This document shows, piece after piece, positions 36,049 through 54,687 of a DNA stretch of 64,000 nucleotides. The DNA is from Marinobacter psychrophilus (GTDB lineage: Bacteria; Pseudomonadota; Gammaproteobacteria; Pseudomonadales; Oleiphilaceae), in contig NZ_CP011494.1 in assembly GCF_001043175.1 (NCBI RefSeq), positions 3,472,001-3,536,000 of the forward strand. The letters are read 5' to 3'. The position numbers were made by a program, and so were the translations under genes. The notes beneath the pieces were generated by a model. It had not been told where the DNA came from, searched no databases, and saw only the letters and a list, made by a program, of their open reading frames with translations. Position 1 is the stretch's first letter. Each line of letters begins with the position of its first letter.

Positions 36049-36411
36049 GGGGACGACATGGCTTCGACGCTGGTGGCGAACCCTTGGGTGCATGTCGAGA
36101 TGGCAGCGAATCTCGTTAATCCAAAGCTGCAACGCAATAGTCGCAAACGACGAAAACTACTCACTAGCAGCGTAAGCTGCTAGTCGTCCTGACTGGGTCG
36201 CCCGTAGCCCAGAGCTACATTTCAGGACGTCATCGCTTACGGGATGCTTCGTTATCCAGAGTTCACTGGTTAACGACTAAGATCTAAAGAACTCGCTTCT
36301 TGCGCCCTGGCCTTCGGGTAGCCTGAAGTTAAATCAGTAGAAGGACACAAGCATGTAGATCCTAAGGCACAGTGCTGGCGGACGCGGGTTCAATTCCCGC
36401 CGTCTCCACCA
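36049..36411 (+). ncRNA. ssrA: tmRNA (transfer-messenger RNA)
   Basis: A 363-base gene with tRNA-Ala-like ends: 5' GGGGACGACATGG and 3' GCGGGTTCAATTCCCGC then CGTCTCCACCA, CCA encoded. The internal tag frame at 36143-36175 reads ANDENYSLAA followed by TAA; the resume codon is GCA. It releases stalled ribosomes together with SmpB and marks products for proteolysis. The 3' end is the left boundary of an integrated island: its last nine bases recur at 49359. Confidence 0.97.
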
Positions 36412-36699
36412 ACTCCTGAGGCACCGGGATTACACCGGAACTCATAGAACTTTAAAGCCCCGCTAGTCGGGGCTTTTTTCTGCCTGTGTTTTATGGCTTA
36501 GGGAAATAGATCTGCCATAGGCAATCACTCGCAATCACTATGATCCTGACACCAACTCCCTTAAATGCCCTAATATTAAAGGGCTACTAAAGATTGACTG
36601 CGTTTTATTTATGTCAGATTAAAGCATATCCACGTCAGAGAAGATCTTGCATCAACTGCAGCGCATGAGGTGGGGATTCCCGTTTTCCATCAGACAGTT
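36403..36699 (+). repeat. Left 297-bp direct repeat at the ssrA 3' end (attL-like)
   Basis: It starts with the last nine bases of tmRNA and contains the ssrA terminator and the first codons of the DUF6088 gene. It aligns without gaps to 49359-49655; I count 23 differences in 297 positions (about 92% identity). Confidence 0.9.
36454..36479 (+). terminator. Terminator downstream of ssrA
   Basis: The stem AAAGCCCC / GGGGCTTT with a 7-base loop and a T run, 43 bases past the tmRNA end. A diverged copy lies in the right-hand repeat. Confidence 0.88.
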
Positions 36700-37207
36700 C
36701 CACGAAATGAGTACAGCTACGTCTGCGCACAAAACGCTGAGCAGGCTTATGCAGAAAGGCATAATTGTAAGAGTAGCCAAAGGCATTTGTGTGCGCCCCA
36801 AGGCATTCGCCAGCATGCTATCAATCGAAATTACGGCAAGCGCAGAACAGATAGCCAAAAAGTGGGCACAGCAGAACGGCTACATACTGTTAAGGCAGGG
36901 CATTGAGTCCGCCTATCGACTTGGCCTTCAAACCCAGGCTCCCGTCAGAACGGTGTTTTGGAGTAACGGTGCCAGCAGCACGTTTTCGGTTGGCAATGAC
37001 ATTGTTGAAGTGCGACACGTGGCAGAATCAAAGCTGCGATGGAAATCACGCCCTGAAGGCGAGCTACTGCGAAGCTTCACCGTCACCCCAGCCAATTGCG
37101 TGAAACTCAGCGAATTGAAAAAAGCACTGACCAGGCTGAAACTTTCCGAAGCCCAGAGCCGAGTGGCGATCAAAAAGCTCAAGGCGGCGCCTTTGCCTGG
37201 AGGATAG
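36647..37207 (+). CDS. DUF6088/AbiEi-like antitoxin family protein (orphan)
   Basis: A 186-residue protein with an N-terminal winged helix (GFPFSIRQFHEM to LSRLMQKGIIVRVAKGICVRPKAF) and a C-terminal domain (YILLRQGIESAYRLGLQTQAPVRTVFWSNG) like DUF6088 and the AbiEi antitoxins of type IV systems. No AbiEii-type toxin is next to it. The start is unclear: TTG 36647 opens the listed frame, ATG 36665 is inside it, and an ACG at 36632 sits where relatives seem to begin (xSEKI). Its first codons are duplicated in the right repeat, where the gene is broken. Confidence 0.75.
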   Translation: MHQLQRMRWGFPFSIRQFHEMSTATSAHKTLSRLMQKGIIVRVAKGICVRPKAFASMLSIEITASAEQIAKKWAQQNGYILLRQGIESAYRLGLQTQAPVRTVFWSNGASSTFSVGNDIVEVRHVAESKLRWKSRPEGELLRSFTVTPANCVKLSELKKALTRLKLSEAQSRVAIKKLKAAPLPGG

Positions 37208-37489
37208 CAGGTCAAATTGGAGCAGCTTAAAAAGGAAATGATGGTTTGACGGACATTTTTCGACTTCCTGACCAGAAAACTCGCCTCTAAAGTCAGATAG
37301 CGGTCAAAATATCTACGAACGACACCTCATTTTATACAGTGACCAGTGTTGGAGACCAGGCAACGGTCATTTCTGGTCATCAAACACCACGTTTATTGTG
37401 GCAATATCACCACCTAGGTTGGTGCTTGGAATCGTTGAACCATCTCGCTGCACCGTTACGACATATGACACTCAAAACAGGCACTTTTT

Positions 37490-38416
37490 ATGTTCAGCCA
37501 GCGTGCGTTAACCTACCTAAACGAAGTCATTCGCCGCGGATCCCTTAGGCGCGCTGCGGCTCATCTGAATGTCGATGCTTCTGCCGTTAGCCGTCAATTA
37601 AAAGCGCTTGAAGAAGAGCTAAATACCCGACTGTGCGAGCGGCACGGTCGCGGAATGCGAGCGACTGCTGCGGGCCAGCTACTTGTTCATCATTTTCATG
37701 CCCAGCGGGCATCAGAAGAAGCCGTACTGTCTCAACTCATGGCACTTCAAAACTTAGTAAAAGGGGAAGTTCGCATTGCCGTTGGGGAAGGATTTATTGC
37801 TGATTTGATCGCCGCACCTTTGGGCACGTTCATGTCAGCGTTTACTGGTATTAATGTAGAAATTCGCATGGCCGGCGTTAACGAAGCGATGTCACTACTC
37901 AAAGATCGTGAAGTCGATATAGCGCTACTTTACGCACCGCCGGTAGATCCGCAGTTTTTCTGCCATGTGGAAACGCGCCAGCCTCTCGATGTTATTGTTC
38001 CTCCTAATCATCCGTTAATTGAACTGAATCGACCCGTAACGTTGAATGATCTAAAAGGTTGGCCTCTTGCGTTAATGGATAATCCTTTCGGTATGCGGCA
38101 AATGGTAAATATGGCAGCTCACCAGGAGCGTGTTCACCTGGAAGCGCGCCTTCATACGAATTCTGTATCCGTTTTAAAAAATTTCGTCCGTTCAGGGATT
38201 GGAGTTACGTTTATGCCGGAGCTCACAGTCATGGATGAAATAAAACGCGGAGAAATTTTCACGCTACCCATGCAATATCCCGTTATGAACGATACCCACG
38301 CGCAAATTGTGAGTCTAAAGGGCCAAGAGTTAACGATAGCGTCAGCCGCTTGTATCGATCATTTACAAAAAGGAATGCGCTTTTTCTCGGCTGACGCACC
38401 TAGACTGTTGCAATAA
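37490..38416 (+). CDS. LysR family transcriptional regulator
   Basis: A 308-residue regulator. The N-terminal helix-turn-helix (FSQRALTYLNEVIRRGSLRRAAAHLNVDASAVSRQLKALE) is followed by a periplasmic-binding-like effector domain (VKGEVRIAVGEGF onward). It precedes the TRAP operon on the same strand by 130 bases and is likely its regulator. The 282 bases upstream of it hold no recognisable gene. Confidence 0.92.
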   Translation: MFSQRALTYLNEVIRRGSLRRAAAHLNVDASAVSRQLKALEEELNTRLCERHGRGMRATAAGQLLVHHFHAQRASEEAVLSQLMALQNLVKGEVRIAVGEGFIADLIAAPLGTFMSAFTGINVEIRMAGVNEAMSLLKDREVDIALLYAPPVDPQFFCHVETRQPLDVIVPPNHPLIELNRPVTLNDLKGWPLALMDNPFGMRQMVNMAAHQERVHLEARLHTNSVSVLKNFVRSGIGVTFMPELTVMDEIKRGEIFTLPMQYPVMNDTHAQIVSLKGQELTIASAACIDHLQKGMRFFSADAPRLLQ

Positions 38417-38545
38417 AGTCCACACTTTAGGTATTGCATAGTCAACACTTCAACACATAGTCTTCTACCAGACATCCCTGATAAGTCTGAGTGCTTGCAC
38501 GTAATACCTCGCAACTAATCAAAATAAAACAGGAAATTTACTATC

Positions 38546-39577
38546 ATGAGACAAAAATTTGCACCCAAGCGACTCATATCAGCTTGCCTGATTGGCTCCG
38601 CCTTAATGGCAGGAAATGCCCTTGCAGCAACCACGATTAATCTGAGCTACAACGGAGCCCCTGACCTAGAAAAGAACGCCGTGCACGTTTTCGCCACTAA
38701 TCTAAAAGAGTTGGTTGAAGAAAAAACCAAAGATCAGATTCAGTTAGCCCTGTATCCCAACAGTATGTTGGGAGAAGAGCAGGAGCGCATGGAGCAGACT
38801 ATGAGCACACCGTCGCTCAACGTCGCATCCTTTGCTGGAGTTTCACCTCTCGTCGATGAAATATTCGTCAGTGCTATTCCATTCCTGTTCGATGATTTTG
38901 CTGCGGCACGCAGCTTCTTCGATAAAGGTCAGTACTGGCAGGAAGTCGGCGATGTGCTGCAGGAGCGTGCCGGTATCGATATGTTGGCGGTCGTGGAAGA
39001 GGGAGGCTTTTTGGCGTTCACCAATAACAAAAAACCCATCAGCCGCCCTGAAGACTTTCAAGGTCTTCGCTTCCGCGCCATGGACCCGAGTCAGGTGGCA
39101 CTCTATGAGGCATTTGGTGCATCCGGCACGCCCATTCCCTGGACCGAAACTTATATGGCCCTACGGACGGGTGTAGCTGACGGCCAAATGAACCCGCCGA
39201 TGTACATTGCCCTGGGCAGCCTTCATGAAGTGCAAAAATATCTGACCCTTGCGAATATTCAATACTCCAACCAATTTCTTGTCGGCAATAGCGAGATGAT
39301 TGCAAATTGGGACGAGGAGATTCGCAGTGCCTTTATGGAAGCCGTCGCCGAGGCTAACCACAATGCCAGAGAGCATAACGAGGATCAGGTTGAAAAGCGT
39401 ATCGCTTACCTGGAAGAGCAAGGCATGGAAGTTATTCGCCCTCCTGAAGAGGACCTGGCTGCTTTCCGCAACATTGGCCAGCCCGCCTATCTTAAATGGC
39501 TAAAAGAGCGTGACATTGAGCAACGCTGGATTGATATGGCGCTGAAAGATGCAGGCGTGAGCAGTCTGCTCGACTAA
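38546..39577 (+). CDS. dctP: TRAP transporter substrate-binding protein (DctP family)
   Basis: A 343-residue periplasmic receptor. A signal peptide ends at ALAA near residue 28. The DctP fold is marked by GEEQERMEQTMSTPSLNVAS, FEDxxA-type FDDFAAARSF, GLRFRAMDPSQVALYEAFGA, with the ligand-clamping Arg in FRAM, and PIPWTETYMALRTGVADGQ. It delivers an organic acid-like ligand to DctQM. A terminator right after it allows the receptor to be made in excess over the membrane subunits. Confidence 0.93.
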   Translation: MRQKFAPKRLISACLIGSALMAGNALAATTINLSYNGAPDLEKNAVHVFATNLKELVEEKTKDQIQLALYPNSMLGEEQERMEQTMSTPSLNVASFAGVSPLVDEIFVSAIPFLFDDFAAARSFFDKGQYWQEVGDVLQERAGIDMLAVVEEGGFLAFTNNKKPISRPEDFQGLRFRAMDPSQVALYEAFGASGTPIPWTETYMALRTGVADGQMNPPMYIALGSLHEVQKYLTLANIQYSNQFLVGNSEMIANWDEEIRSAFMEAVAEANHNAREHNEDQVEKRIAYLEEQGMEVIRPPEEDLAAFRNIGQPAYLKWLKERDIEQRWIDMALKDAGVSSLLD

Positions 39578-39603
39578 TCAACGGCTAACACCTTTGCCGC
39601 GAC

Positions 39604-39637
39604 AGAGGGCTGGTGCCTCGCCAGCCCTCTATTTTTT
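39604..39637 (+). terminator. Terminator between dctP and dctQ
   Basis: A perfect 10-bp stem AGAGGGCTGG / CCAGCCCTCT (39604-39613 and 39621-39630), then A and six T residues. It also rules out a GTG at 39613 as the dctQ start. Confidence 0.9.
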
Positions 39638-39657
39638 GTGCCTCATGGAATGCTGCA

Positions 39658-40149
39658 ATGCTCAATAAGCTTCGATCCCGCCTACTGCTTATAAGCTGTC
39701 CGTCCACTCTAACCCTAGCGGGGGCTTTATTATCCCTCAATGTTGCGGCTATTTTGTTTGGTGTTTTTGCACGCTACATTGCGGGCGGCGCCCCTATCTG
39801 GACAGATGAGCTCTCTCGCTTCTTGATCATAGCCACCGTCATGATTGCGGCTGGTGCCGTCTGGTCGGAAGGGGGCCACATGCGCGTCGGTCTCCTGGAA
39901 AAACTGCTTTCAGCTCCATTCGCTCGTTTACTGAACCTGTATCAATGGCTGCTTACTCTGCTAATAGCCGTGGGAGCGGCATGGGTAAGCTACCGCTATG
40001 CGCTATCGGTCAGCATGTTTACCACGTCCGGGCTTGGCATTAGCCGCACAGTGCCACTACTCTCGTTGCCTTTTGGCTTTTTATTACTGGCTTGGCATGT
40101 GCTGCTTTACGGACCCGCGCCTCTAAAGTCCATAGAGGACCAGATATGA
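39658..40149 (+). CDS. dctQ: TRAP transporter small permease (DctQ family)
   Basis: A 163-residue inner-membrane subunit with four hydrophobic segments (about 16-36, 49-68, 88-110, 128-150). The DctQ mark WTDELSRFLIIATVMIAAG is present. The start is ATG 39658 because the longer frame begins inside the terminator. It overlaps dctM by four bases (ATGA). Confidence 0.92.
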   Translation: MLNKLRSRLLLISCPSTLTLAGALLSLNVAAILFGVFARYIAGGAPIWTDELSRFLIIATVMIAAGAVWSEGGHMRVGLLEKLLSAPFARLLNLYQWLLTLLIAVGAAWVSYRYALSVSMFTTSGLGISRTVPLLSLPFGFLLLAWHVLLYGPAPLKSIEDQI

Positions 40150-41423
40150 TTCTTAGCATGTTGGTCGTTTTTCTTATCCACGTTTTACTGGGCCTTCCTT
40201 TATTCATCGCATTGATTACAACAGCGATCGTAGGTTTTTTGTTTGTCGATCCCTCGATGATTCCACGGATGATGCCCCAGCAATTTTTTAGCGGTATTAA
40301 TGTTTTTTCCCTGATGGCTATTCCGCTATTCATCTTCGCCGGTAATCTGATGAACGTCAGCGGGTTAACGGAACGTTTAATGGGGCTGGCACGCCTGATG
40401 GTCGGGCACTTACGGGGAGGCATGGGCCACGTCAACGTCGTTTCGAGTGTTTTCTTTGCAGGCATTAATGGCTCAGCAGTGGCCGACACGTCGGCACTCG
40501 GTTCGCTTTTGGTACCCGCCATGGAGAAAGAAGGGTACTCAAGAGCCTTTTCGGCTGGATTGACCGCGGGCAGCTCGTTGATCGGTCCGATCATTCCGCC
40601 CAGTATATTTATGATTCTCTACGCCTCACTAACGAACACCTCGGTCGGGGATCTTTTTCTGGCGGGCGTTATACCTGGGCTGTTGCTAGGTGCTGCATTC
40701 ATGGGAATGAACGCTTGGTATGCCTGGCGCCATCGACTGCCAAAAAGTGGCAAGTTGCCATCGTTCGGCCAGCTTGGAGTAGCGTTTTTAGCGGCCCTGC
40801 CCGCGCTTGTCGCTCCCTTCATTATCGTCGCAGGCATTGTTTTTGGTTTTGTTACCCCTACGGAATCTGGAGCTTTGACAGCGCTATATGTCGCCTTGTG
40901 CGGTGTCTTTCTCGGTGGGTTACGCTTGAAGGAATGCTGGAAAGCTATCGTTGATACGGCACGCCTAACTTCTGCGATTTTTCTGATTATGGCAGCTTCC
41001 GCTACGATTAGCTGGCTACTCTCGTATGCTCAGGTTCCAGCGCAATTCGTGTCACTACTTTCTCCCTATGTGGACAATGGCGTCGTCATTTTACTAATGC
41101 TCAGCGTTATCACATTCTTCACGGGGATGTTTATGGAAGAAGTGTCGGCGTTGATGTTACTAACGCCAGTCTTTGCGCCAGTGGCCATGATGGCAGGAAT
41201 CGATCCCGTCCATCTGGGTGTCATCATCACTTTGAATATTACGATTGCCTTGATAACACCGCCATTGGGCGCCTGCGTTTTCGTGGCCGCGGCCGTTAGT
41301 CGGCTTGAGATTGTCTCACTGTTCAAAACCATTTGGCCCTTTGTGCTAACGGCTATTGCGGTACTTATTCTACTAATCCTTTTCCCACCGCTAACGCTGT
41401 GGCTCCCTACCCTGTTTGGATAA
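40146..41423 (+). CDS. dctM: TRAP transporter large permease (DctM family)
   Basis: A 425-residue ion-coupled permease with about eleven to twelve transmembrane helices. Family marks: GLPLFIALITTAIVGFL, IPLFIFAGNLMNVSGLTERL, FAGINGSAVADTSALGS, LIGPIIPPSI, FVTPTESGALTALY and ITPPLGACVFVAA. ATG 40146 is coupled to the dctQ stop and has GAGGA upstream. Confidence 0.95.
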   Translation: MILSMLVVFLIHVLLGLPLFIALITTAIVGFLFVDPSMIPRMMPQQFFSGINVFSLMAIPLFIFAGNLMNVSGLTERLMGLARLMVGHLRGGMGHVNVVSSVFFAGINGSAVADTSALGSLLVPAMEKEGYSRAFSAGLTAGSSLIGPIIPPSIFMILYASLTNTSVGDLFLAGVIPGLLLGAAFMGMNAWYAWRHRLPKSGKLPSFGQLGVAFLAALPALVAPFIIVAGIVFGFVTPTESGALTALYVALCGVFLGGLRLKECWKAIVDTARLTSAIFLIMAASATISWLLSYAQVPAQFVSLLSPYVDNGVVILLMLSVITFFTGMFMEEVSALMLLTPVFAPVAMMAGIDPVHLGVIITLNITIALITPPLGACVFVAAAVSRLEIVSLFKTIWPFVLTAIAVLILLILFPPLTLWLPTLFG

Positions 41424-41427
41424 GACA

Positions 41428-42189
41428 ATGCCTTTGAATACACTATTGAACGCCTTGCCACTTATACCCAGTCATCCAGCCCCGTGCTGGGAACGGCTAC
41501 GCTGCGCCCCCATTAAAGATAACGGTGAGCGCCTGGTACCAATGAGCCTCGCGCCTACACCGATCAGCGTGTTCCCCGCCTATGCTCGGATGGGCATTCC
41601 TGGTGCGGTGCAGGAATGTTTTGTACGTGAAGGTGTTTATCGGGCGCTGCTCGCTGCGGCACGTAGCTTACCCGACGGCATAGGTATAATCGTTTTAGAC
41701 GGATGGCGTCCATGGCAGGTGCAACAGTATTTGTTCGACACCCTGCACGAAGCAATCCGGCACCACCAGCCTGATCTCAGCACAACCGCGCTGTTAGAGC
41801 GAACAAGGGAGTTTGTGTCGGTACCTAGTCGCGACCCCTTAGCTCCCAGCCCTCACCTCACCGGCGGCGCCGTCGATGTCACGTTATGCGATGCCGATGG
41901 TTTACCTTTAGATATGGGCACTTTGTTTGACGAGGCAGTGCCTGCCTCCCACAGTGACTATTTCGAGCACCTGAAAGCACTAACGCCGCAGCAACAAAAA
42001 GCGCGGGATCATCGCCGCTTGCTTTACCACTCCATGCGTCAACAAGGCTTCACCAACCTACCCAGCGAGTGGTGGCACTACGATTTCGGCGATCAACTGT
42101 GGGCGTATTATGGAGCCCATGACCACGCCTATTACGGCCCAGCCGAGCTAGACACCATTGAAAATCGCTGGCGCAAACAACTGGGATGA
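41428..42189 (+). CDS. VanX/DdpX-type D-alanyl-D-alanine dipeptidase
   Basis: A 253-residue zinc dipeptidase of the M15D family. Zinc ligands His143 and Asp150 in SPHLTGGAVDVTL and His217 in SEWWHYDFGD, catalytic Glu214, and Arg94 in DGWRPWQ are all present. The family cleaves D-Ala-D-Ala, for recycling or nutrition (DdpX) or in vancomycin resistance (VanX). No signal peptide is seen, so it acts in the cytoplasm. It begins four bases after dctM, so it belongs to the TRAP operon, suggesting the transporter brings in a D,D-dipeptide or related compound. That link is inference. Confidence 0.88.
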   Translation: MPLNTLLNALPLIPSHPAPCWERLRCAPIKDNGERLVPMSLAPTPISVFPAYARMGIPGAVQECFVREGVYRALLAAARSLPDGIGIIVLDGWRPWQVQQYLFDTLHEAIRHHQPDLSTTALLERTREFVSVPSRDPLAPSPHLTGGAVDVTLCDADGLPLDMGTLFDEAVPASHSDYFEHLKALTPQQQKARDHRRLLYHSMRQQGFTNLPSEWWHYDFGDQLWAYYGAHDHAYYGPAELDTIENRWRKQLG

Positions 42190-42229
42190 TTGGGTAACAG
42201 ACACCAATTTAGTGTGTTTGTGTAGTAGT

Positions 42230-43044
<815 letters not shown>

Positions 43045-43048
<4 letters not shown>

Positions 43049-43116
43049 AGGCGAGCCTCCAGCAGCCGGTCGTACACGCTGAGCGGATGCTGTAAGCTCT
43101 CTATTGGAATAGGTCG
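43045..43116 (-). pseudogene. istA: 3' fragment of IS21 istA
   Basis: About 23 codons reading RPIPIESLQHPLSVYDRLLE and ending in a TGA that overlaps the istB ATG (ATGA), the usual istA-istB junction. The rest of istA is missing; the sequence upstream belongs to the DUF932 gene. Confidence 0.6.
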
Positions 43117-44009
43117 AGTTGAGACTGGTCTTTGTTGTAATGCCTGTTGTGTTGGTAATCGATGAATTCAGTCACAGCATTCACCAAACCTTAAGCAGTA
43201 CCTTTGGATGAAGCCAGCGTGGCGCCCATGCCATCGCCTTCATACAGCCCGAGGGCTTTGGCCATGGACCGCTCGTTGGTTTTGCCGACCCCATTACCGG
43301 AATCATCGGTGAACATCTTGAGGAAGTAGTTCCTGGCTTCGGTGGTCTTCACTTTCCGTTCGCCCAGTGTCTTCAAGCGATACATGAAGTCGTCCCAAGC
43401 GGAGACGGATATGCCGAGCTGCTTCTTCACTAGGTCCGCATCGAAGGCTGTATTGTGCTTCACCTTTACCGCAGTAGCGGTGGCGTCCCTAAGCGCCACA
43501 GCTAGTGTATTGTTGCATACCACACGAATGCTGATGAATTGCGCGGTGGTGGCCATGGTGCCATCACAAGCCGCAGCCAACAGCACATAGGCATTGGTTT
43601 GATCATTGCCTTGCAGCACACCGGACTGGCCGGTGCGAGCAAGCGCCCACATTTTCCGGCCACCTTTCAGCACGCTCGCTGTTTCCAGTTCAAAACCGGA
43701 AACCTCGGTTAGATCCCGATAGAACTCCAGAATTTCTTCGGGCTGGACCACTTTGAAAGGGTTACCAACAACAGACAGCGGAGCTTTGGCGTCTAACCGT
43801 TACAGCACCTTGCTATCCGGGTAAGGCAGGATCTTCCCGAGGGTGCCACCGGCATTGGTGACGTAGCGAACGGGGCTTTCCTCGAGCTGCCAATCCAAAC
43901 CGGCTTACTTGACCCAGACTTTCAGGGGCTGATTCGTCGTGAGTTGATTACCCCGGCCATTCCACCGGGTTTGGCCAACATAGGCCACCTGCTCAATAAG
44001 GTGAGCCAT
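43101..44009 (-). pseudogene. DUF932 (phage/plasmid-related) protein with three stop codons
   Basis: A complete 302-codon frame from ATG 44009 (AGGAGA upstream; MAHLIEQVAYVGQT) to TAG 43101. It carries the DUF932 core APLSVVGNPFKVVQPEEILEFYRDL and YEGDGMGATLASSKGTA. TAA codons interrupt it at 43905-43907, 43800-43802 and 43191-43193; the last replaces a Trp position, judging from the family as I remember it. The longest open piece is 186 codons (43191-43751). DUF932 proteins occur on plasmids and conjugative elements. Confidence 0.85.
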
Positions 44010-44040
44010 GGTTGTTCTCCTATGGAATTTACGAAATGAC

Positions 44041-44166
44041 TTAACGAGAGTCATCCCGGGAATCGGGATCAGTGCCGGCAGACGCATCAACCACACCAGC
44101 CGTTTTCTTGCCATAGTTTTTCTTACCAATCCAGACAGATTGGCAGTTGAGACATGGTTCGAGCAT
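44041..44166 (-). CDS. Small CxxC protein upstream of the DUF932 gene
   Basis: A 41-residue open frame starting ATG 44166 (MLEPCLNCQSVWIGKKNYGK) with AGAGG upstream and TAA at 44041. Cys5 and Cys8 form a CxxC pair typical of half zinc ribbons. It lies 31 bases upstream of the DUF932 frame on the same strand and, unlike that gene, is unbroken. The function is unknown; it could be a cargo protein of the former mobile element. Confidence 0.5.
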   Translation of the reverse strand: MLEPCLNCQSVWIGKKNYGKKTAGVVDASAGTDPDSRDDSR

Positions 44167-44708
44167 TGAAAATACCTCTGTGAATTGGGAGGGAAGGCAC
44201 TTTCAGCGCCTTGGTTCACGGAGGTGATATAGGTTTGAGATTTGATGGAATCGTAGGAAAGCTCACGTCCAGCAGTTTTGGGAGTAACACGTTTTCACTC
44301 GTTACCGGCCCAGATCCCTTTGCACTTCCACGCCAAATCGTCCACTTCGATCAGTCATTATGCCTTACTTGCAGCAGGATCAATTGCCAACTAGAAAGTC
44401 CTCGAGAAGATTGTGTCATTTGGAGCTGCTTGCCTGAAAATAAGGGCCGATATGTGATGGAAGTGGACCTTTTTCAGATAGGGTTTTTCCCGGTCCGCTA
44501 TTCGGAAACAAGGCACGCTGAGGTCGCAAAGCGAACATTCAGGCGGATAGACCACGATTTGCCCTCGAAGAAAATCAGCCTCTGTTCAGGAATGGCCGCA
44601 GCGACGTACAGCCAGTATCGAACATGCCATTCGGTACCATGTTGCTCCATCGCGGCAACCAGCGTGGCCAAAAAGAAATGGAGGATTCACAAAGCGTGCG
44701 ATTCCCTA
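44167..44708. other. Stretch without a supported gene
   Basis: An open frame of 188 codons runs 44211-44777 on the plus strand from a TTG. It has no ribosome site, is Cys and Ser rich, shows no recognisable domain, and overlaps the end of the exported protein gene on the other strand. I see no RNA gene or terminator. Confidence 0.4.
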
Positions 44709-45173
44709 TCACCGGTCGAAATTGGCCAAGGTGTAATCGGTCATCGCGGCTTCGACTGCGGTTTTTATGTTTTGTAACACGGCGTCAGCCTCCATAGCTG
44801 CGAAGATCTCGCCGTAGTCTCTAACGTAAAGCACCGTTGAGTCGGAGTCCTTTCTGCCAAACTGAATGGCGAGGGAAAAGACGGAGGTCTGGTCGACGTC
44901 GAGGCATCTGACGCTGACACTCAAGTGGACTTCCCCGCGGCGTCCTGGCTTTGGCTCAACTTCCGATCCCGTGATGACGCTTGCCACGGCGTCTTTTAGC
45001 TCGCGCTCCGTAATCACGCAGGCATCTTCCTCAAACTGGGCAACGTAACCCAGGATTTTGGGGTCAGGCTTTTCAAGAGCATTCATGTACCAAGATGGCG
45101 GGAAACCGCCATGAGCCACGCTGGTGACCAGGAGCAGCGAGAGCACGCATAAATTTAGCCGAGAAAACATCAT
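44709..45173 (-). CDS. Exported protein of unknown function
   Basis: A 154-residue protein with a clear signal peptide (MMFSRLNLCVLSLLLVTSVAHGG, cut near 22) and GGAG five bases before the paired ATG codons. The mature part is mixed alpha/beta with Cys in EEDACVIT and VRCLDVD that could form a disulfide. No family was recognised. It is the only intact minus-strand gene in this decayed part of the island. Confidence 0.6.
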   Translation of the reverse strand: MMFSRLNLCVLSLLLVTSVAHGGFPPSWYMNALEKPDPKILGYVAQFEEDACVITERELKDAVASVITGSEVEPKPGRRGEVHLSVSVRCLDVDQTSVFSLAIQFGRKDSDSTVLYVRDYGEIFAAMEADAVLQNIKTAVEAAMTDYTLANFDR

Positions 45174-45384
45174 TGAACTCCAAATCTTGGATAGGTACTG
45201 ATGTTTTAACCAGTAACTCGCCTTTAGGCAAGGCTTCCATCTTGATTAAAACCTTCACGTCCCCCGGAAACCTTGGGTCACCAGGTAAACTCCCTGATCG
45301 CTCACCATCAATCATGAAATCTTGTTTCTTAACCAATTCAGGGTGAAGAAAGTGAGTAATTGACGGCGCTCCGAAGGTTCGCTT

Positions 45385-45582
45385 TTGTTTATTGGGTTGG
45401 ACAGCACGGCTTACGGAACTCATTCGATGAGACGCACCAAGGTCGCGCTAATCTATCGTCAGACCAAGAATCTCAGAGCGGTCCAGATACTATTAGGACA
45501 CAGAAGCCTTGAAAGCACTGTGAGATATCTGGGCGTCGAGATTGATGATGCTCTTGAGCTTTCTGAGCACATCGAAATTTGA
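45385..45582 (+). pseudogene. 3' fragment of a tyrosine recombinase (integrase)
   Basis: About 65 codons matching the C-terminus of a phage-type integrase: HSMRRTK (the H-x-x-R box), VQILLGHRSLESTVRYLG with the second His and the catalytic Tyr region, then an acidic tail. The N-terminal part and the first catalytic Arg are missing. It is the only integrase trace seen on the island. Confidence 0.8.
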
Positions 45583-45993
45583 AGCTGCTCAAAACGAAGC
45601 GGAGTCAGAGCATGACGGAGAATTGCGAAGGGCGAGTCGATTAAATAATGCCAAACGACTGATAAAAGCGAATCTTTTTACCTCAACCAATTTTGGCCAG
45701 CTTTCATTGGAAAGCGGACCTTTTTGCCGCGCCGAGATAGGCTATTTTCAACCGCCTCGGGAAGGCCCAGAAGATTTCACCTTGGGGAAGCTTTTTAATT
45801 CTTAGGGCTACCTCAACCTGTTAATCACCAGCACATATGGGTGTTAACTGCAAGTAAATATGGCAGCCAATGGCACTGATTTTAAATGAAATTTATGACA
45901 TTGCTGATTATTAATGATAGTGTGCCAGCGCCTTCTCAGGTGGAAAGAAAAAATGCCTACAAAAGAAGTATTCAACCTACGTGGAGTTTTTGT
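45583..45993. other. Gap without a supported gene
   Basis: 411 bases between the integrase fragment and the PEGA lipoprotein. An 87-codon frame (45542-45805) overlaps the integrase end and has no domain. The AT-rich stretch before 45994 probably holds the promoter of the next operon; no clear -10/-35 pair was chosen. Confidence 0.4.
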
Positions 45994-46389
45994 ATGAATA
46001 AAGCAATGCGGTCTCTGATTCAAGCTTCAGCTGCTCTGGTGGTTCTAACGCTGTCTGGCTGTGCCACAGTGATTTCTGGCACCACTCAAACACTGACGTT
46101 TAACAGTGACCCAAAAGGTGCGGATGTTTATCTCGACGGGGCGAGGGTTGGGACCACACCAGTTTCTCTCAGCGTCAAGAAGAACAAAAAAGATGCGTTC
46201 ATGATTCAAAAGGAAGGCTACAAGACAGTTAGCCGTGATATTACTAAGTCCTATGACCCGGTTACAGTGCTGAGCATATTTTGGGATTATTCCACGACTG
46301 ACATGATTTCTGGTGCAGCGTTTGAATATGAGCCTAACTCATATTTCGTTGAGTTGGCTAAAGATGAAGAGACCAACGCCGTAAACTAA
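45994..46389 (+). CDS. PEGA-domain lipoprotein
   Basis: A 131-residue lipoprotein: signal MNKAMRSLIQASAALVVLTLSGC with lipobox LSGC, then a PEGA domain (TFNSDPKGADVYLDGARVGTTPVSLSVKK). PEGA domains are surface or periplasmic beta modules of uncertain role. The start is ATG 45994 with GTGGAG upstream; the longer frame lacks a signal. Its TAA overlaps the next ATG (TAATG), so it opens a three-gene operon. Confidence 0.85.
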   Translation: MNKAMRSLIQASAALVVLTLSGCATVISGTTQTLTFNSDPKGADVYLDGARVGTTPVSLSVKKNKKDAFMIQKEGYKTVSRDITKSYDPVTVLSIFWDYSTTDMISGAAFEYEPNSYFVELAKDEETNAVN

Positions 46390-46715
46390 TGAATCTGATC
46401 AACAGAGCGGCCTGTGGGCTTACTGCGGTATTGCTGATGGCCCTGGTTGGCGGTGCTGCGGCTTCCTCTCAAATCCCGGAACAACGTAGAGAGAATTGGC
46501 TGGACCCCGATCTTGCGGGGTTTGTCCTTCAGAATGCCACCCACTTACGCTATGAAATTAGCGTGGCCAAGGGACCACGGGTCAAGAGTCTGCTGCGCCT
46601 GCTGCAATCACGTGCGAGTCAAGTTGATCTGGGGTGTCTTCAGGACATTGCAGAGAATGCCGACAGCGCCTATGAACTTTATCTGGGGCTGAAGAACGCC
46701 GATCGCCGTTGCTAA
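46389..46715 (+). CDS. Small exported protein in the PEGA-DUF4105 operon
   Basis: A 108-residue protein with a signal peptide (MNLINRAACGLTAVLLMALVGGAAAS, cut near 25) and a helical mature part with two Cys (CLQDI and the terminal RRC). No family was recognised. It is translationally coupled to the PEGA lipoprotein and overlaps the start of the DUF4105 gene. Confidence 0.7.
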   Translation: MNLINRAACGLTAVLLMALVGGAAASSQIPEQRRENWLDPDLAGFVLQNATHLRYEISVAKGPRVKSLLRLLQSRASQVDLGCLQDIAENADSAYELYLGLKNADRRC

Positions 46716-48436
46716 TATTTAACCTCTTCACATTGTTTCCACCCGGTCGTTGGCTCAATCGGCGCTTCACACTTATGCTGTGGCTGGCGTCGGTTTTCGG
46801 GTCGCATGAGTCTTTGGCTAATACGGATGACTCCGTCTGGCGCAAGTTGCTGATTGCTGATCAAGCTGTGTTAACAGATCTGACAGCCTCTCCGTTCTTC
46901 CTGACCGATGTTTCCGTTGATCCTACCGCGGAAATGCGCGCCCTGTTGACAGGGCCAACGGAGCAGTACAAGTGCCGTTTTCCTGCCCGTATGCTTTATT
47001 TGGAGCGTGAGGGCCTGCTTGGCGAGGAGCTTGATTTCTCCGACTGTCCGAAGTTGAAAGAATTTATGTCGGTTATGGACTCAGATTCCCTGGAGCTGGT
47101 CTTCGCCGGGCCGTCGGTTGCATCGCCGATGTCTTACTTCGGTCACATATTCCTAAAGTTCCGGAAAAAGGACAATGAATATTTCTCCCGAACGTTAGCA
47201 TTTCTTGCTCCTCTTGATAGCGGTGAAAGCATGCTTCAGATTACGGCTGCGGGCGCTTTTTCCTCCATTCCAGGGCAGTACCATGTGGCGCCCTACCACC
47301 AGATGATCAGTGAATATATCGAGGTAGACCAGCGTCCTATCCAGACCTATGAGCTGGATGTTCAGCCCGGCAATAAAAAATTATTGCTTTATCACATCTT
47401 TGAGCTGGCGGCACTGAACCGGCCTTATAATTTCTTTTGGGGTAACTGCGCTACACGCATTCAGGAGCTGATGGAAATTGCCTTTCCGACGGAGCTTGGC
47501 GACGTTGCTCCTGGCCTCGTTTCCCCCCAGAGCCTCATTCGTGTCCTGCGCAACAAGGACTTAATAGTTCGCTCTAGTGAGATGCCCGCGCGTTCGGAGG
47601 CTCTGTTCGCTGCCTACCATTCGTTGCCACACAATGATCAGAAAGTCCTAAAAGCGCTTCTTGCATCGCCCGACAAGGCCGCGTGGGTTGCTCGAAACGG
47701 TAACGATTTGTTGCCATTGGCTCAAGCTATCTATCAACGTCAATTTCGGGCACTCGGCGCACCACCGGCAGATTACTCGCAACTGATGAGCCTGCCTGCC
47801 AAACCTCTATCTGGCCCCGCTCCTGACCCGATCCGTCCTGAACGGCCTCGGTTATTGGAGATCGGCTGGCTTAATAACCCTGCCGATCGCACTACCTTAC
47901 GCTTTCGCCCCGGTCTTTTTGATCGTTCCTTTGACAGCCTCGCGCTGGCTACTGAGAGTAGCTTTCGTTACCTGGATACGACCTTGAGCGTGCGAAATGA
48001 AAACGTCTCGCTGGAAAAACTGGATTTGCTTGCCCTGGCGGCTACCAAAAAACGCTCGGTAGTAGAACGACCGCTTTCATGGGGGTTCACCGCCGGATGG
48101 TCTCGTGCTTTCGACGGGGATCGCCTGAATTATAAGGTGAGGACCGCTATCGGTATGGCTTGGGGTGGAACTCAGACCCAGTTCTCAGTGATGCCGACGC
48201 TGACGTATTTTTCCGGTGAAGGGGTCTTCCCTGGTCTGGCGGTGAGTGCCAGCTTGCGCCTTGGCCAAGCCCGGCTCTCGGCCGAGATCGATCATTTTGG
48301 GGTCTCAAGTGATGAGCGGCCGAGAAACCGTCGGCGCCTAGCAGTCAGTTATGAGTTAAATTCGGCTTGGGCGGTGCAAGGCGGTATCGATCAGGTGACT
48401 CAGGGAGTCGACGTGGCCCTCAGCCATCGTTTTTAA
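46709..48436 (+). CDS. DUF4105 (Lnb_N-like) periplasmic protein, copy 2
   Basis: A 575-residue exported protein, paralog of the one at 562-2439. Shared landmarks: CRFPAR at 89-94, SYFGH with His146, and WGNCATR with Cys247, a probable His/Cys catalytic pair. The C-terminal third alternates hydrophobic and polar residues and ends in Phe (VALSHRF), as in barrel-type outer-membrane proteins. The start is uncertain: TTG 46709 overlaps the previous stop, TTG 46733 gives a cleaner signal peptide, and ATG 46775 leaves a short one. If the family is a lipoprotein acyltransferase as I recall, the PEGA lipoprotein is a candidate substrate. Confidence 0.82.
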   Translation: MLIFNLFTLFPPGRWLNRRFTLMLWLASVFGSHESLANTDDSVWRKLLIADQAVLTDLTASPFFLTDVSVDPTAEMRALLTGPTEQYKCRFPARMLYLEREGLLGEELDFSDCPKLKEFMSVMDSDSLELVFAGPSVASPMSYFGHIFLKFRKKDNEYFSRTLAFLAPLDSGESMLQITAAGAFSSIPGQYHVAPYHQMISEYIEVDQRPIQTYELDVQPGNKKLLLYHIFELAALNRPYNFFWGNCATRIQELMEIAFPTELGDVAPGLVSPQSLIRVLRNKDLIVRSSEMPARSEALFAAYHSLPHNDQKVLKALLASPDKAAWVARNGNDLLPLAQAIYQRQFRALGAPPADYSQLMSLPAKPLSGPAPDPIRPERPRLLEIGWLNNPADRTTLRFRPGLFDRSFDSLALATESSFRYLDTTLSVRNENVSLEKLDLLALAATKKRSVVERPLSWGFTAGWSRAFDGDRLNYKVRTAIGMAWGGTQTQFSVMPTLTYFSGEGVFPGLAVSASLRLGQARLSAEIDHFGVSSDERPRNRRRLAVSYELNSAWAVQGGIDQVTQGVDVALSHRF

Positions 48437-49358
48437 CACGTTAAAAGTTTAAGCCTGATTGATTCTGAGTAGAGGATGCACGTATCGATTACTCGCTTGA
48501 ATACCGCTTTCTGACAACGGGAAGACGTCTCAGTAGCAAACCTTGAAACACCAGCTATTTCCAACGCGTCAGTAGTTCCAGTTAACCTTGGGGGAATTAC
48601 GGGGTTACGCAGCTCGGCAAAAGGTCCGTTTTGTGGTCAAAACGGTCAGTCGCGGCACCGTAAGAAAGGTCCGCTTAGAGAACAATGCGGACATTTGATC
48701 AAGCATAGAAGACTTACCAAGTACATTATGTGAAAGGGTTCGAAAGCTGATCGATGAAGTCCTTTATGACACTAAGCAGCTCAGTCCGCCTCTCTGCAAC
48801 TTTATTGAAGCGCAACCATGGAAACAGAGTAGAACCCTTCTTCGTGCTAGGTAGATCACGGGCCGCTTAAAAAGATACTTTAATGGAATAGTGAAAGCAG
48901 AGACCCGGCCTGGAGCCAGTTCCCTGCTTTGTCCTGATCGCAATTACCAGCCGCCCGTTAATGCATGCGCTATAATTCTCTTTTGGCACATTATAGCTTG
49001 CTACGCCCAATCTCAAACATGGGAATCACTCCGCAGTACAGAAATGATTTAGGGGGTATATATTGTGGTACATTTTTTAATAAAATAATTATTTATATAA
49101 ATTTATCAATTATTTATAATAAATTATGAGCCCTTTCGGGGTAAAGATATTAACGGGAACGCTAGAGAGCTTTGTAGTGATCCTTAGCACTGACGACGGT
49201 TTTAGGTCAATCTCCCGCATAGCTAGGCTCAAGAAAAGCGACTATGTTATGCCTTTTCCCACCGGTGCATAGCCGTCTTAACGTGGGTAACGCGACTAAA
49301 ATTCTATAATTTAAACGGTATTAATCAGAATCTTAAAGACGCTATTCAAGGGACGCTT
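48437..49358. other. Long non-coding stretch at the right end of the island
   Basis: 922 bases without a convincing gene. It includes an extremely AT-rich tract (49058-49127), an 8-bp inverted repeat GCTATAAT / ATTATAGC (48969-48976 and 48990-48997), and a minus-strand frame of about 45 codons near 48720-48860 with no start or domain. It looks like eroded mobile DNA. Confidence 0.5.
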
Positions 49359-49655
49359 TCTCCACCAACTCCTGAGGCACCGGGGTTACACCGGAACTCA
49401 CAGAACCTTAAAGCCCCGCTAGTAGGGGTTTTTTTCTGCCTGTGTTTTGTGGCTTGGGGAAATAGATCTGCCATAGGCCATCACTCGCAATCACTATGAT
49501 CCTGACACCAACTCCCTTGAATGCCCTGATATTAAAAGGCTACTGTAGATTGACTACGTTTTATTTATGTCAGGTTAAAGCCTATCCACGTCAGAAAAGA
49601 TCATCCGTCAACTGCAGTGCATGAGTCGGGGATTCCCGTTTTCCATCAGACAGTT
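49359..49655 (+). repeat. Right 297-bp direct repeat (attR-like copy)
   Basis: It begins with TCTCCACCA, the tmRNA 3' end, and follows the left copy base for base through the terminator and the DUF6088 N-terminus (STSEKIIRQLQ in the same frame). It then diverges abruptly after CAGACAGTT, and the reading frame stops soon after. The bases before 49359 are not tmRNA. Confidence 0.9.
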
Positions 49656-50188: not shown

Positions 50189-51454
50189 TTAAAAACTCAG
50201 AGTGAAACCTGCAGACAGGCGACTCTCGTCATGAAACTGGCCAAAGGTCCCTGTCCGTTTTCCAAAAAACAGATCAGCCCCCGTCCGCAGAACCACGTTG
50301 GTCGATACTGAGTACTCAGCTTCCAGTTGGATCAGTGAGTCCCGATTGTTCAGGTCATATATGCCGAGAACCTCCAGTGACAAGGCGTTGTTCATTGCAT
50401 CACGCCTTACCAGTAGCGTGAACTGCTCGTCGGACGGCTCTTCATCGCGCTCAGTGGAAAAACGGTATGTCTGGAAGAACTGCGTGCTGACAAACCAGTC
50501 ACTGAAGCCACTGTAATCCAGTCCAAGCACATAAGACGCGACTTCTGACTTCCTGACTTGTCCGGTTGCGGGGTCCAGTGACCGCTTTTCACTTTCAAGA
50601 CCGATCTCACTGCGAAATGTTACATCCCCAAACGGTTTTGATGCAGTGCCGCCGATCAAGTGGGAGCGATTATAATCCGCCCTAATCAGTTGCTCTGAGG
50701 GATCAAACTGAATCAGTGGATCATCAATTGTGTGGTAGAGATAATTCAGAGAAAGATCCCAGCCTTGCTGGAACGTTGACAACTTTAACCCAAAATCGCT
50801 CTTGGCAAACGAGTCAGGGCGATCTACCTCCAGCCGCCCTTCTCCCGCAAACGGGTCCGGGATGAGGGAATACGTGGCGCCCGGTAACGTGCTTTTGGTC
50901 ACCGTAGCGTCCGGGATCCAGACGATCTGGGCAGTCCCGTTATCCAGCGGAATCTCTGTGAGTGCAGACCATAACGGGATACGCCGATGCTCAATATCCG
51001 GGAGTATAAACTCCCGGTAGCTCAGCGGATTTAATACATCCAGCACCCTCAGACCATCGGCTTGCCCCCAGACGATCTGCTGCTTGCCCAGGCGCACAAA
51101 GGCGTCACCGACATAGTTATCCAGGTAAAATTCCCTGAGTTCCACGTCGGCGTGATCACCAGGAAAGCTTTTCTGCGTCAGCCCCGCGCGAAAGGGTTGG
51201 TCCGGCCGCCCCGGGTCCAGTTCATCTTTTGCATCAAGGCGCCCTTCCCCTAACAGCGTAAGGCGCATTCCCGACTCAAAACGCGCTATCCATTCAGGTC
51301 TCCAGACTATTTCCTGCTTCTGCCAACCACTGACCTCAGGGGAATAGGCGGCCTCTACCTCGATCAGGGAGGCGTGCTCAACTTCAGCGGCCCGGACTGG
51401 CGTAAGGAGCAGGGTCCAGATGATCGGCAGTATCAGCATTCGAACCGGTTTCAT
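50189..51454 (-). CDS. DUF1302-type outer membrane protein
   Basis: A 421-residue protein with a signal peptide cut near VRAAE (residue 23). Repeated beta hairpins, the segment RLGKQQIVWGQADGLRVLDVLNPLSYREF and a C-terminal GFTLSF typical of barrels match the DUF1302 family. Its stop-to-start spacing of one base behind the RND-LolA gene shows co-transcription. It is plausibly the outer-membrane partner of that transporter; the substrate is unknown. Confidence 0.82.
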   Translation of the reverse strand: MKPVRMLILPIIWTLLLTPVRAAEVEHASLIEVEAAYSPEVSGWQKQEIVWRPEWIARFESGMRLTLLGEGRLDAKDELDPGRPDQPFRAGLTQKSFPGDHADVELREFYLDNYVGDAFVRLGKQQIVWGQADGLRVLDVLNPLSYREFILPDIEHRRIPLWSALTEIPLDNGTAQIVWIPDATVTKSTLPGATYSLIPDPFAGEGRLEVDRPDSFAKSDFGLKLSTFQQGWDLSLNYLYHTIDDPLIQFDPSEQLIRADYNRSHLIGGTASKPFGDVTFRSEIGLESEKRSLDPATGQVRKSEVASYVLGLDYSGFSDWFVSTQFFQTYRFSTERDEEPSDEQFTLLVRRDAMNNALSLEVLGIYDLNNRDSLIQLEAEYSVSTNVVLRTGADLFFGKRTGTFGQFHDESRLSAGFTLSF

Positions 51455-51455
51455 C

Positions 51456-54400
51456 TCAGTAGCCCCGCTTCAATGCATTCTGCTCAAACAAACGTGGGGG
51501 CACGTCTGCTCCGTAGTCCGTGTTGTGGAACTGGATGCGTGTGGAATGACCGGTCTTCTTGTTGGTGGCGTCGATATCAGTGATGGCCCAGATGCCGTCA
51601 ATCTTCTCAATACCGCGTGCGTGCACCGTCTTGAGAAAATTACCCCTTACGTCCCAATATTCGGTCAGTCGTGGAATCCACAAAGATGAATCGATACGGA
51701 ACACCACCCGTCCATAGCCCAGTGCACGACTAACCTCCTGATCAATCGGAGTCGCCTCTACTTTCCAGGTAGAATGACCATCTACCTCCTCTTCACCGAG
51801 TAGTGAGAATCGGTAGTCCTCGGCAGCAATCTTGCTCTCTTTCTTGATTTCTTCGTAGGTGAAGTCGGTCCCCAGAAAGTAATCGCCGCGATCGGACGCA
51901 GAGATCCGTCGAACCTTCCTCAATGCCGGCAGGTAGAGCCATTGATCATCTTCTCTGGCCTGGTCCTCGTAATCCCACGTCAGGAACGCAGTTCCCGCAA
52001 CGGTTGCAGGCTTTGTATAGAAGATTGCCGTCTTCTTGTTCTCTCCGAAGTAGCGACGAAACGCCCGGGTATGTTCTTCACGAGTGTTACCACGGCGATC
52101 AGTCAAAGTGATGATCATATCCCGTTGAACAGAAACACCCTCAGGGCGGTCGTTCATCTGTTGGATAATCTCATCGACTGCAGGCGCGCCCTCACCTGCG
52201 ACGGCTTTGCTGGTCAGCGCGGCCGCTGCCAAAAGCGCTAGCAGGATCATTCCGGTTTTCCAGAAACTCCCGCTTTGGCCGAGCATGAATTTTGGCTGAA
52301 AAATAAGAGTAATCGCGGGAATCAAGAGCAGGCTGGCAACAAACGCAACCAATACAGACAATGCCACCAACATTCCGAAGTTCACTAGGGGAGGAACTTG
52401 GCTGGTCATCAGAACACCGAAACCCAGAGAGACGGCCAGAAGGTTAAACCAGAGTGCGCGCCCGGTGGACACGAAGACACTTGAAATGCGCTGAATGCTG
52501 CTGAGATCCCCAGGCTTTGACATTGCTTCCCGGAGTCGGTCAATGGTGTGGATCGCAAAGTCCACGCTCAGGCCTATGGCAATGGCGGCGAACATGGATG
52601 TTCCCACGCCGAGCCAAATACCTTTTGCACCCATGACGGCGTAGATCACCAGGATGGACAATCCAACCGGAATCGCTGCCATCATGCCGGCGATGATTGA
52701 CCGAAAGAGGAGTGCGGCCATTAAAAATACAGCCAGAAATGACACGATTACGCTATTAACATGGCTGTCGGCAATGCCATCAATCCAGTGGTAATCCACG
52801 TTAATCCGGCCGCTTATTTGCGCCGTCACTTCGCCATCAAATTCAGCGGAGAGGTAGTTCTCGAGCCGTGGAATGAGAGAGCGGCTAACCTGATAGGACC
52901 CTGTTTTCAGGCTTGCTCTGACCAACGCTGTTTTGCGCTGGGAATCCACGCGCTCCTCGAAGTCAGTCGGATCGCCTGATGCCGTGTACAAGAGAAACAG
53001 CTGGGCAATGAGATTCTTGTCATCCGGTAAGGCGTAGAATGCTGGATCATCCTCATGGACGGCTTTATTCATCTGCTTGATGTAGTCAGCAATGGAGGTT
53101 GTTCCATGTACCTCGGACTGCCCTTCCAGGAAGCTCTGCAGCTGACTGATATCTCTCAACACGGACGGATCGTAAATTCCCTCTGCATCAGGTGCTTCGA
53201 TCACTACGTCCAGATAGTAGGTTCCATCCATCGAAGCATTGATTGCCTTATCAGCGACGTAGATCGGTTCATGTGGCTGAAAATTTTCGATCCTTTCCTC
53301 GTTGATCACCACGTTTGAGGCTCCCACCACTGCAAGGCCGCCAAGCAGTAGCCCTCCCGCAAGGACTTTCTTCGGATGCTTCAGAGAAAGTGAGCTCAGT
53401 ATTTTCACCAAGCCTCTGTTTGGAATCAGGCTGTTTTGACGTTGGAAAAGCCTGCTAGGCCGCGCTTTGAAAAAGGACAGCAGTGAAGGCGTCACGAAAA
53501 GTGTCAGAATGCCCGCAATCAAAACCGCTACGGCACCGAAGATGCCAAAGTACTGCAGCGGCGGCATATCATTGGTGGGATACAGAGCCAGAAACCCAGC
53601 CGCTGTTGTCAGGGTGGTCAGAGTAACCGGGCGCCACATGTTGGCCATTGCCGTAGCAATCGCATCGGAATGGGGCAACGCGGGGTCAGCGGACAGAATT
53701 TCGTAATATTCAGAGAAAATATGAATGGAATCAGCAACGGCAATTCCAATCATGCAGACGATCAAGCCGTTGGTGATGACATAGAATTCTGCTCCGCCGA
53801 CTGCCATTGCCCCCAGCGTTCCGGCGACAGTGCCCGCAACAATCAGGTTAGGAATAATGGTTGCCCGTGGGGTAAAAAAGGCTGCGATCAATACAATAGT
53901 AATAATGAGACCTGCCAAGGGGTTCAACCTTTTCGCATCACGGTCAATGTACTCAGACAGAAAACCGACGATGGCACCCTCTCCTGCAACATGGATTTGT
54001 TCCTGCCCCTTTGGTGCCCGCTCAATGAGCCCCATTACAGCCTGATAGGTCGCTTCAGCCTGCCCCTGATCCAACAGCTCGGCTACGATTAATGTCATGG
54101 AGCCATCGGCGGCAACCAGGCTGCCGTCGTAGAGAGGAAAATTCTTAACGCTGTTTTCAATCCATTTGATGTGAGCCCCATCGAGAGGGCCATCAAGAAA
54201 TTCCCGAACCTCCATTCCAAAGGTATCCCCCTGGATATTGGACTCGGTCGCCAGGCTAGTGATGCCCTGAGGGTCAATATTTGGCACGGATATCAGCTGA
54301 TCACTCAACCACTGCACCAGTTTCAGGCTTCTCTCGTTGTAGATCCCTGCCGCCCCATCGTTTTGCACTGCAATCACCATAGGATCTTTCAGGTTGAAAA

Positions 54401-54605
54401 TTTCTTCGACAGCGCGCCGATAGATCAGCGCCGGTTCGTTGTCGTCGATAAACGCATCGGCCTGGGTGTTCTTTTTTAACTCCCCAAGCTGACTGCCAAG
54501 GCCACCAACAACAATCAGTGCCGCGATCAGCGAGAACCAGCGATACCGAATCAGACGTTTGAAAAACAGAAACGCAGTTGAGCGATGCTCCTGATGTCCA
54601 GCCAT
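51456..54605 (-). CDS. RND/MMPL transporter fused to a LolA-like domain
   Basis: A 1049-residue protein. Residues 1-780 are an RND superfamily exporter (MMPL/COG1033 type): TM1 at 21-44, a periplasmic loop, TM blocks around 225-390 and 630-780, with GIAVADSIHIFSEY and GLSVDFAIHTIDRLREA. A hydrophobic segment KTGMILLALLAAAALTSKAVA near 785-802 joins a C-terminal domain of about 247 residues like outer-membrane lipoprotein-sorting (LolA-fold) proteins (LYLPALRKVRRISASDRGDYFLGTDF). These are usually separate genes. ATG 54605 has AGGAGG upstream; a palindromic operator lies at 54617. Confidence 0.85.
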   Translation of the reverse strand: MAGHQEHRSTAFLFFKRLIRYRWFSLIAALIVVGGLGSQLGELKKNTQADAFIDDNEPALIYRRAVEEIFNLKDPMVIAVQNDGAAGIYNERSLKLVQWLSDQLISVPNIDPQGITSLATESNIQGDTFGMEVREFLDGPLDGAHIKWIENSVKNFPLYDGSLVAADGSMTLIVAELLDQGQAEATYQAVMGLIERAPKGQEQIHVAGEGAIVGFLSEYIDRDAKRLNPLAGLIITIVLIAAFFTPRATIIPNLIVAGTVAGTLGAMAVGGAEFYVITNGLIVCMIGIAVADSIHIFSEYYEILSADPALPHSDAIATAMANMWRPVTLTTLTTAAGFLALYPTNDMPPLQYFGIFGAVAVLIAGILTLFVTPSLLSFFKARPSRLFQRQNSLIPNRGLVKILSSLSLKHPKKVLAGGLLLGGLAVVGASNVVINEERIENFQPHEPIYVADKAINASMDGTYYLDVVIEAPDAEGIYDPSVLRDISQLQSFLEGQSEVHGTTSIADYIKQMNKAVHEDDPAFYALPDDKNLIAQLFLLYTASGDPTDFEERVDSQRKTALVRASLKTGSYQVSRSLIPRLENYLSAEFDGEVTAQISGRINVDYHWIDGIADSHVNSVIVSFLAVFLMAALLFRSIIAGMMAAIPVGLSILVIYAVMGAKGIWLGVGTSMFAAIAIGLSVDFAIHTIDRLREAMSKPGDLSSIQRISSVFVSTGRALWFNLLAVSLGFGVLMTSQVPPLVNFGMLVALSVLVAFVASLLLIPAITLIFQPKFMLGQSGSFWKTGMILLALLAAAALTSKAVAGEGAPAVDEIIQQMNDRPEGVSVQRDMIITLTDRRGNTREEHTRAFRRYFGENKKTAIFYTKPATVAGTAFLTWDYEDQAREDDQWLYLPALRKVRRISASDRGDYFLGTDFTYEEIKKESKIAAEDYRFSLLGEEEVDGHSTWKVEATPIDQEVSRALGYGRVVFRIDSSLWIPRLTEYWDVRGNFLKTVHARGIEKIDGIWAITDIDATNKKTGHSTRIQFHNTDYGADVPPRLFEQNALKRGY

Positions 54606-54616
54606 CACCTCCTCCT

Positions 54617-54630: not shown

Positions 54631-54687
54631 TCAAAGATGTTTAAAAAAGGCGCTTCGACGCCCTACGCTATTCACTTTTTCCTATGC

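Follow-up and report, generated by a model that had tools for sequence, protein, structure and literature searches.

We analysed a window of 64,000 nt from Marinobacter psychrophilus (positions 3472001–3536000 of a single-contig genome of 3,998,597 bases), in which a long direct repeat starts at the 3′ end of ssrA, the gene for transfer-messenger RNA (tmRNA). The complete ssrA gene was located at 36049–36411 on the plus strand (ARAGORN; Rfam RF00023, 207.8 bits) and is the putative integration target of the islands described here. The two copies of the repeat, A (36403–36699) and B (49359–49655), were placed by repeat search and base-by-base comparison. They lie on the plus strand, 12,956 bp apart, and form the single two-copy family detected in 35500–62000. 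Positions past 64000 continue the window numbering and are called extended. The comparison set consisted of 124 genomes of the genus, and relatives are given by codes (G004, G091, G131, etc.).

A and B align without gaps over 297 positions, with 23 mismatches and sharp edges, and both start with TCTCCACCA, the last nine bases of tmRNA, exactly as the original prediction had described. The blastn E-value of the pair was 1.5e-117, excluding chance similarity. The first 124 bp of the repeat, named T1, comprise the ssrA 3′ end and a hairpin with a T tract (36403–36526 in A, 49359–49482 in B) and hold 8 of the 23 mismatches; the other 15 fall within the remaining 173 bp. The hairpins of the two copies (−15.7 and −14.5 kcal/mol), each followed by T, are putative terminators. 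T1 of copy A is homologous to modules without DUF6088 in G091, G131 and G136, and is considered to be element-borne. It had been claimed that integration duplicates only a short attachment (att) core. This agrees with the 9 bp found at B, the rest of the 297 bp being the left end brought by the element.

In copy A, T1 is followed by a DUF6088 gene (36527–37267, plus strand; open frame 36647–37207), which is a decayed AbiEi antitoxin gene, as identified by Pfam PF19570, PADLOC (AbiEi) and alignment to G004 and G091. The start codon of the G091 and G004 genes is not conserved, the frame ends early and the toxin gene is missing. Copy A was less identical to G091 in protein (80%) than in DNA (85%); G091 and G004 showed ~90% identity at both levels. 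Copy B retains about the first 24 codons, matching residues 1–24 of the G091 protein. Of the claims that both copies hold the ssrA terminator and the DUF6088 5′ end and that each element brought a DUF6088 gene, the hairpin and the 5′ part of the gene stood, but a whole gene was not shown in B. The fusion point between T1 and DUF6088 (~36526/36527) is identical in A and B. In G091, DUF6088 is located 9.5 kb right of T1, past type I restriction-modification genes, and precedes AbiEii. Because T1 and DUF6088 are unlinked there, their junction in the two copies is a derived state; the fusion predates the split of the copies. The window gene resembles the AbiE type IV toxin-antitoxin system in matching AbiEi models and in having an intact G091 relative that precedes AbiEii, but differs in being a decayed antitoxin gene alone, with no toxin gene. 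The AbiE pair (AbiEi then AbiEii) was not found in the window, and 46 AbiEii residues persist alone at extended 68960–69097.

Further copies were found beyond the window by whole-genome search. Modules C (extended 64428–64542, 80% over 115 bp) and E (extended 90567–90631, 88% over 65 bp) are eroded T1 copies, and copy D (extended 68514–68553 and 68536–68946, 85–86%) holds the antitoxin part only. All three are oriented as A and B. The tmRNA gene and its displaced 3′ fragments thus share one orientation, with 9 exact bases kept at B and diverged ends at C and E. A third att core to the right of 60500 had been anticipated. Fossils are present there, namely C at 64428, E at 90567 and a scrap of a P4-type integrase gene at 60494–60556 on the plus strand. 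The scrap is 82.5% identical to the G131 integrase gene, gave a tblastn match of 79% over 19 aa (E 0.001), and may be the fossil of an island end of the T2 type described below; G131 has the same scrap beside T2.

When 36403–36640 was used as a query against the 124 genomes, some match was obtained in 22, of which 15 matched merely 24–44 bp of the terminator. The T1–DUF6088 junction was spanned in this genome alone, and this genome alone matched both halves of the repeat, so no relative lacking the island was found to keep both repeats. T1 without DUF6088 was observed in G091, G136 (at 2620667, its ssrA being at 3747375) and G131 (half a module, at 2202301). G004 has a 69-bp T1 piece distant from ssrA, and G016 has a diverged T1 (74% over 80 bp). 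In G091, an 8.3-kb island has its tyrosine integrase beside ssrA and ends in a perfect 27-nt repeat of the ssrA end; T1 stands immediately right of this repeat. T1-like terminators with similar flanks were also seen away from ssrA in this genome (2116799–2116865, a 67-bp match) and in G004 (C1:1016769–1016837). The idea that T1 natively flanks ssrA in this clade was dropped, since the flank differs where the chromosome closely follows ssrA (G005, G031 and G027).

The extent of the interruption was estimated from synteny. Synteny with G004 (~91% identity) breaks at 36413, two bases beyond tmRNA, and restarts at extended 98449; that with G131 restarts at 98450. In G005, G031 and G027, a gene equivalent to the one at extended 99084 lies within ~1 kb of ssrA. 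By these alignments, the chromosome breaks off at the ssrA end and picks up again after ~98448 (extended), leaving an interruption of ~62 kb. Within the interruption, a 495-bp piece (90056–90549) is common to the ssrA region of G004. The ssrA end and terminator were also used to look for a right-hand att site near 98449, and E at 90567 was the sole standout.

The original prediction called for an ssrA-targeting integrase in relatives, and two kinds were found, inovirus-like (with a 27-nt repeat) and P4-type. Inovirus-like islands of 8–9 kb occur at ssrA in G091 (C60:122166–130844) and G131 (C1:3329318–3338309), with the tyrosine integrase adjoining ssrA and the 27-nt repeat closing the other side. 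In G131, the island encodes a Zot-domain protein; such proteins are encoded by filamentous phages. The P4-type integrases contain arm-binding, central and catalytic domains, and are associated with T2, a second module built like T1. T2 matches of at least 80 bp were found in 18 of the 124 genomes (30 including short matches), and were counted as one locus per genome, two of the loci being near a contig end. Upstream of T2, a full ssrA directly adjoins at 13 loci, a 27-nt ssrA end is present at one, and neither at four. Right after T2, there is a complete P4-type integrase at six loci, a partial one at two and none at ten; five of the six with a complete integrase have a full ssrA. Because ssrA lies upstream at 13 of 18 loci and a P4-type integrase follows at some, T2 is, by its gene context, the ssrA-side end of an integrase-bearing island family and often outlasts the integrase. 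In G116, three T2 copies lie within 61.7 kb, of which one has a complete integrase, another a partial one and the third none; G131 and G026 hold two T2 modules each. One T2 inside the G116 array (C75:497225–497352) keeps 125 nt of ssrA 3′ sequence, far more than the short core. Compared with a T2-class left end (ssrA core, terminator and integrase), A and B have the core and the terminator, and the integrase is absent.

The right ends of these islands could also be compared. Where T2 follows DNA other than ssrA, G131, G116, G026 and G004 carry motifs like GTGGGTAAC at 75 and/or 87 bp before the core. Left of B, the right end of unit A–B (49283–49358, plus strand) consists of GTGGGTAAC at 49283–49291, an AT-rich stretch and the core edge. 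This motif is 76 bp from the core and is one of the two expected for the T2 class (~75 and 87 bp). The exact 9-mer occurs four times in the 134 kb read around the array. The core common with ssrA is 9 bp at B vs 14 bp at the T2 right ends of G131, G116 and G026. Because the motif spacing and the core resemble the right ends of relatives, the best reading of A–B, from these likenesses, is a single island that ends at B, with B being the left end of the DNA that already occupied the site.

The sequence downstream of ssrA was surveyed at 34 loci, comprising the best 30 matches among the 59 genomes in which ssrA was matched, and four more; two loci had less than 100 nt downstream. A hairpin with a T tract starting no more than 75 nt past the ssrA end was found at 32 of 32 loci, and in 26 of 640 mononucleotide shuffles. 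The downstream sequences were 36–61% identical to that of the window genome, with 40% for G004 even though its ssrA is 97.8% identical. The T1 hairpin was missed by a consensus terminator scan, probably owing to the extension of its stem into the T tract. Since the hairpin is constant while the downstream sequence diverges, each incoming element seems to supply its own stop, although some of the 32 flanks may be native. This would explain how ssrA keeps a stop signal despite repeated replacement of the sequence behind it, and suggests a rule that any element replacing the tmRNA gene end arrives with a terminator of its own.

With the repeat, the further modules, the motif left of B, the integrase scrap, the T2–integrase islands of relatives and the chromosome common on both sides all directly observed, we consider it probable that the region is an old, partly decayed stack of site-specific islands at the ssrA 3′ end. 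Each island would belong to a group of elements that integrate through a short core at the extreme 3′ end of ssrA; in intact relatives, the integrase of this group is a P4-type tyrosine recombinase. The ssrA-side end would have carried the core and its own terminator, so that each insertion restored ssrA with a fresh 3′ end and stop and pushed the older ssrA end downstream. Newer islands would accordingly lie nearer ssrA. Unit A–B would be one island, and B would be the left end of the older island behind it, moved away from ssrA. The left ends A and B would be alike through common descent from an element with T1 fused to the AbiEi antitoxin gene. T1 presumably once had a P4-type integrase, and the array is probably no longer mobile by itself. 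The long repeat is thereby explained as the left ends of stacked islands, a layered record of entries at one chromosomal site. The stacking of two related elements at ssrA, as originally proposed, is supported and is widened to more than two units. As for the proposal that related elements account for the divergence of the repeats, the stacking held, and the divergence fits either separate arrival or an old copy.

Several observations weigh against a stack of integrase-driven islands. The GTGGGTAAC motif was picked after inspecting relatives. No motif like it was found at the T2 site of G099, no such right-end motif at C, D or E, and no matching motif on the right of A. No intact integrase was detected in 36412–98448 by tblastn with three integrases (one inovirus-like and two P4-type proteins); in the search of 36413–98448 with these queries, 60495–60551 was the only match with E ≤ 0.05, the next best being 0.10. 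None of the PF00589 matches of this genome lay in the array among the 8 of 12 listed. T1 adjoining a P4-type integrase was seen solely in the diverged form of G016. The T1-like terminators located off ssrA (at 2116799 in this genome, 1016769 in G004, 2202301 in G131 and 2620667 in G136), together with the lack of any integrase left in the array, would also suit a different explanation, that the repeats are not attachment sites and the module spread by ordinary recombination or a non-integrase element, its location at ssrA being incidental. We regard this as highly improbable: the array modules start with bases like the ssrA end and are oriented as ssrA, T2 is located between ssrA and a complete integrase at six loci, five of them with a full ssrA, and the distance of the motif from the core at B is like that at other right ends.

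A and B could, on the other hand, derive from one island duplicated in this lineage, by a circular copy re-entering its own site or by unequal recombination, and then drifting apart. This is unlikely, though less so than incidental spread. It would account for the T1–DUF6088 junction being common to A and B and found in no other of the 124 genomes, and T1 is slightly closer between A and B (94%) than between A and G091 (92%) or B and G091 (86%). However, unit A–B and the unit after B have no cargo homology, and self-comparison of the 134 kb showed the modules only. Moreover, the A–B distance is about that between species (92% for T1 of A and G091; 94.5% for the chromosome), which excludes a recent duplication and leaves an old one followed by deletion.

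The deeper layers of the proposed stack were compared with G131. The two genomes differ near ssrA and have common sequence further out, as expected if new islands enter at ssrA. The integrase scrap is shared with G131 next to T2, where ~200 bp align closely. The two genomes have in common an 8-kb segment (60477–68481 extended) with module C and genes for PhnM-like and phosphonate-binding proteins. This segment is 95.4% identical to G131 over 8,009 bp vs ~90–93.5% for the long flanking chromosome blocks; its first part in the window is 60572–64000 on the minus strand, with Pfam support for two proteins. The next 22-kb unit (68514–90566 extended), with phosphonoacetaldehyde hydrolase and PhnW-type (2-aminoethylphosphonate transaminase) genes, appears to be missing from the G131 stack at ssrA. 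There, a single module joins the left flank of D to the right side of E, and the cargo differs beyond ~200 bp up to 98449; reading G131 as an empty site for D–E is therefore suggestive only. A segment ending in the half T1 module is located elsewhere in the G131 genome. The 95.4% segment, the joined D and E, and this displaced segment hint that a module can persist after its integrase is lost and serve as a site of exchange, homologous recombination between scattered modules moving metabolic cargo into and out of the stack at ssrA with no integrase involved, an idea we hold tentatively and with considerable doubt.

The cargo was annotated from open reading frames, Pfam and, for unit A–B, tblastn. 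Unit A–B (37490–48436) carries a LysR-type gene (by sequence) and encodes a TRAP transporter (DctP), a protein of the D-ala-D-ala dipeptidase family, IstB of IS21, DUF932 and an Lnb_N protein. The IS21-type IstB gene is located at 42230–42937, and no transposase partner was noticed alongside. The next unit (50189–59500) encodes DUF1302, an MMPL/RND-type protein, a hydrolase, MarR-type and LysR-type regulators (by sequence) and a flavodoxin-reductase-like protein, three of them with Pfam support. It is followed by an insertion-sequence transposase fragment with rve domains (60083–60499, plus strand; PF13683 and PF00665) at a putative former island boundary.

Cis-mobilizable elements (CIMEs), which are related to ICESt1, are integrase-less segments bounded by att sites and accreted at one target, functional att sites being part of the definition. 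The array segments resemble them in lacking integration genes of their own (by tblastn) and in being stacked at one target, but with eroded cores and no motif remaining next to A, mobility is doubtful. CIMEs and accretion are named in the text of PMC3146451, which describes several tandem islands downstream of ssrA within 100 kb in Dehalococcoides, bounded by ssrA 3′-end repeats, and reports 15 islands without an integration module (PMC3146451). The Marinobacter array is alike in its tandem arrangement at ssrA, its ssrA-end repeats and the absence of integration genes from some islands. In contrast, the Dehalococcoides islands use the serine recombinase DsiB, a 20-bp repeat and insertion in the T-loop (PMC3146451), whereas the integrases at ssrA in Marinobacter relatives are tyrosine recombinases, those of the T2 islands being P4-type. 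The core is also shorter (9 bp at B; 14 bp at T2 right ends), and the left ends have their own terminator; the word "terminator" is absent from the main text of PMC3146451. Islander, as its published text has it, lists 125 tandems of two or more and four of three or more, and its tandem tDNA arrays likewise have the tmRNA gene and displaced fragments in one orientation (PMC4383910). It requires an integrase gene per array member (PMC4383910); just the 63-bp scrap at 60494–60556 is left here, and G116 has this in part. In the literature searched on Marinobacter, genomic islands and tmRNA, no title or abstract opening mentioned Marinobacter ssrA islands or, as weak evidence of absence given that article bodies were outside the search, island-borne ssrA terminators. 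The latter may be treated in Traffic at the tmRNA gene (Williams, 2003). Tandem ssrA islands are thus already known and this array is a decayed example of them, while the Marinobacter arrays and the element-borne ssrA terminators are apparently details new to us.

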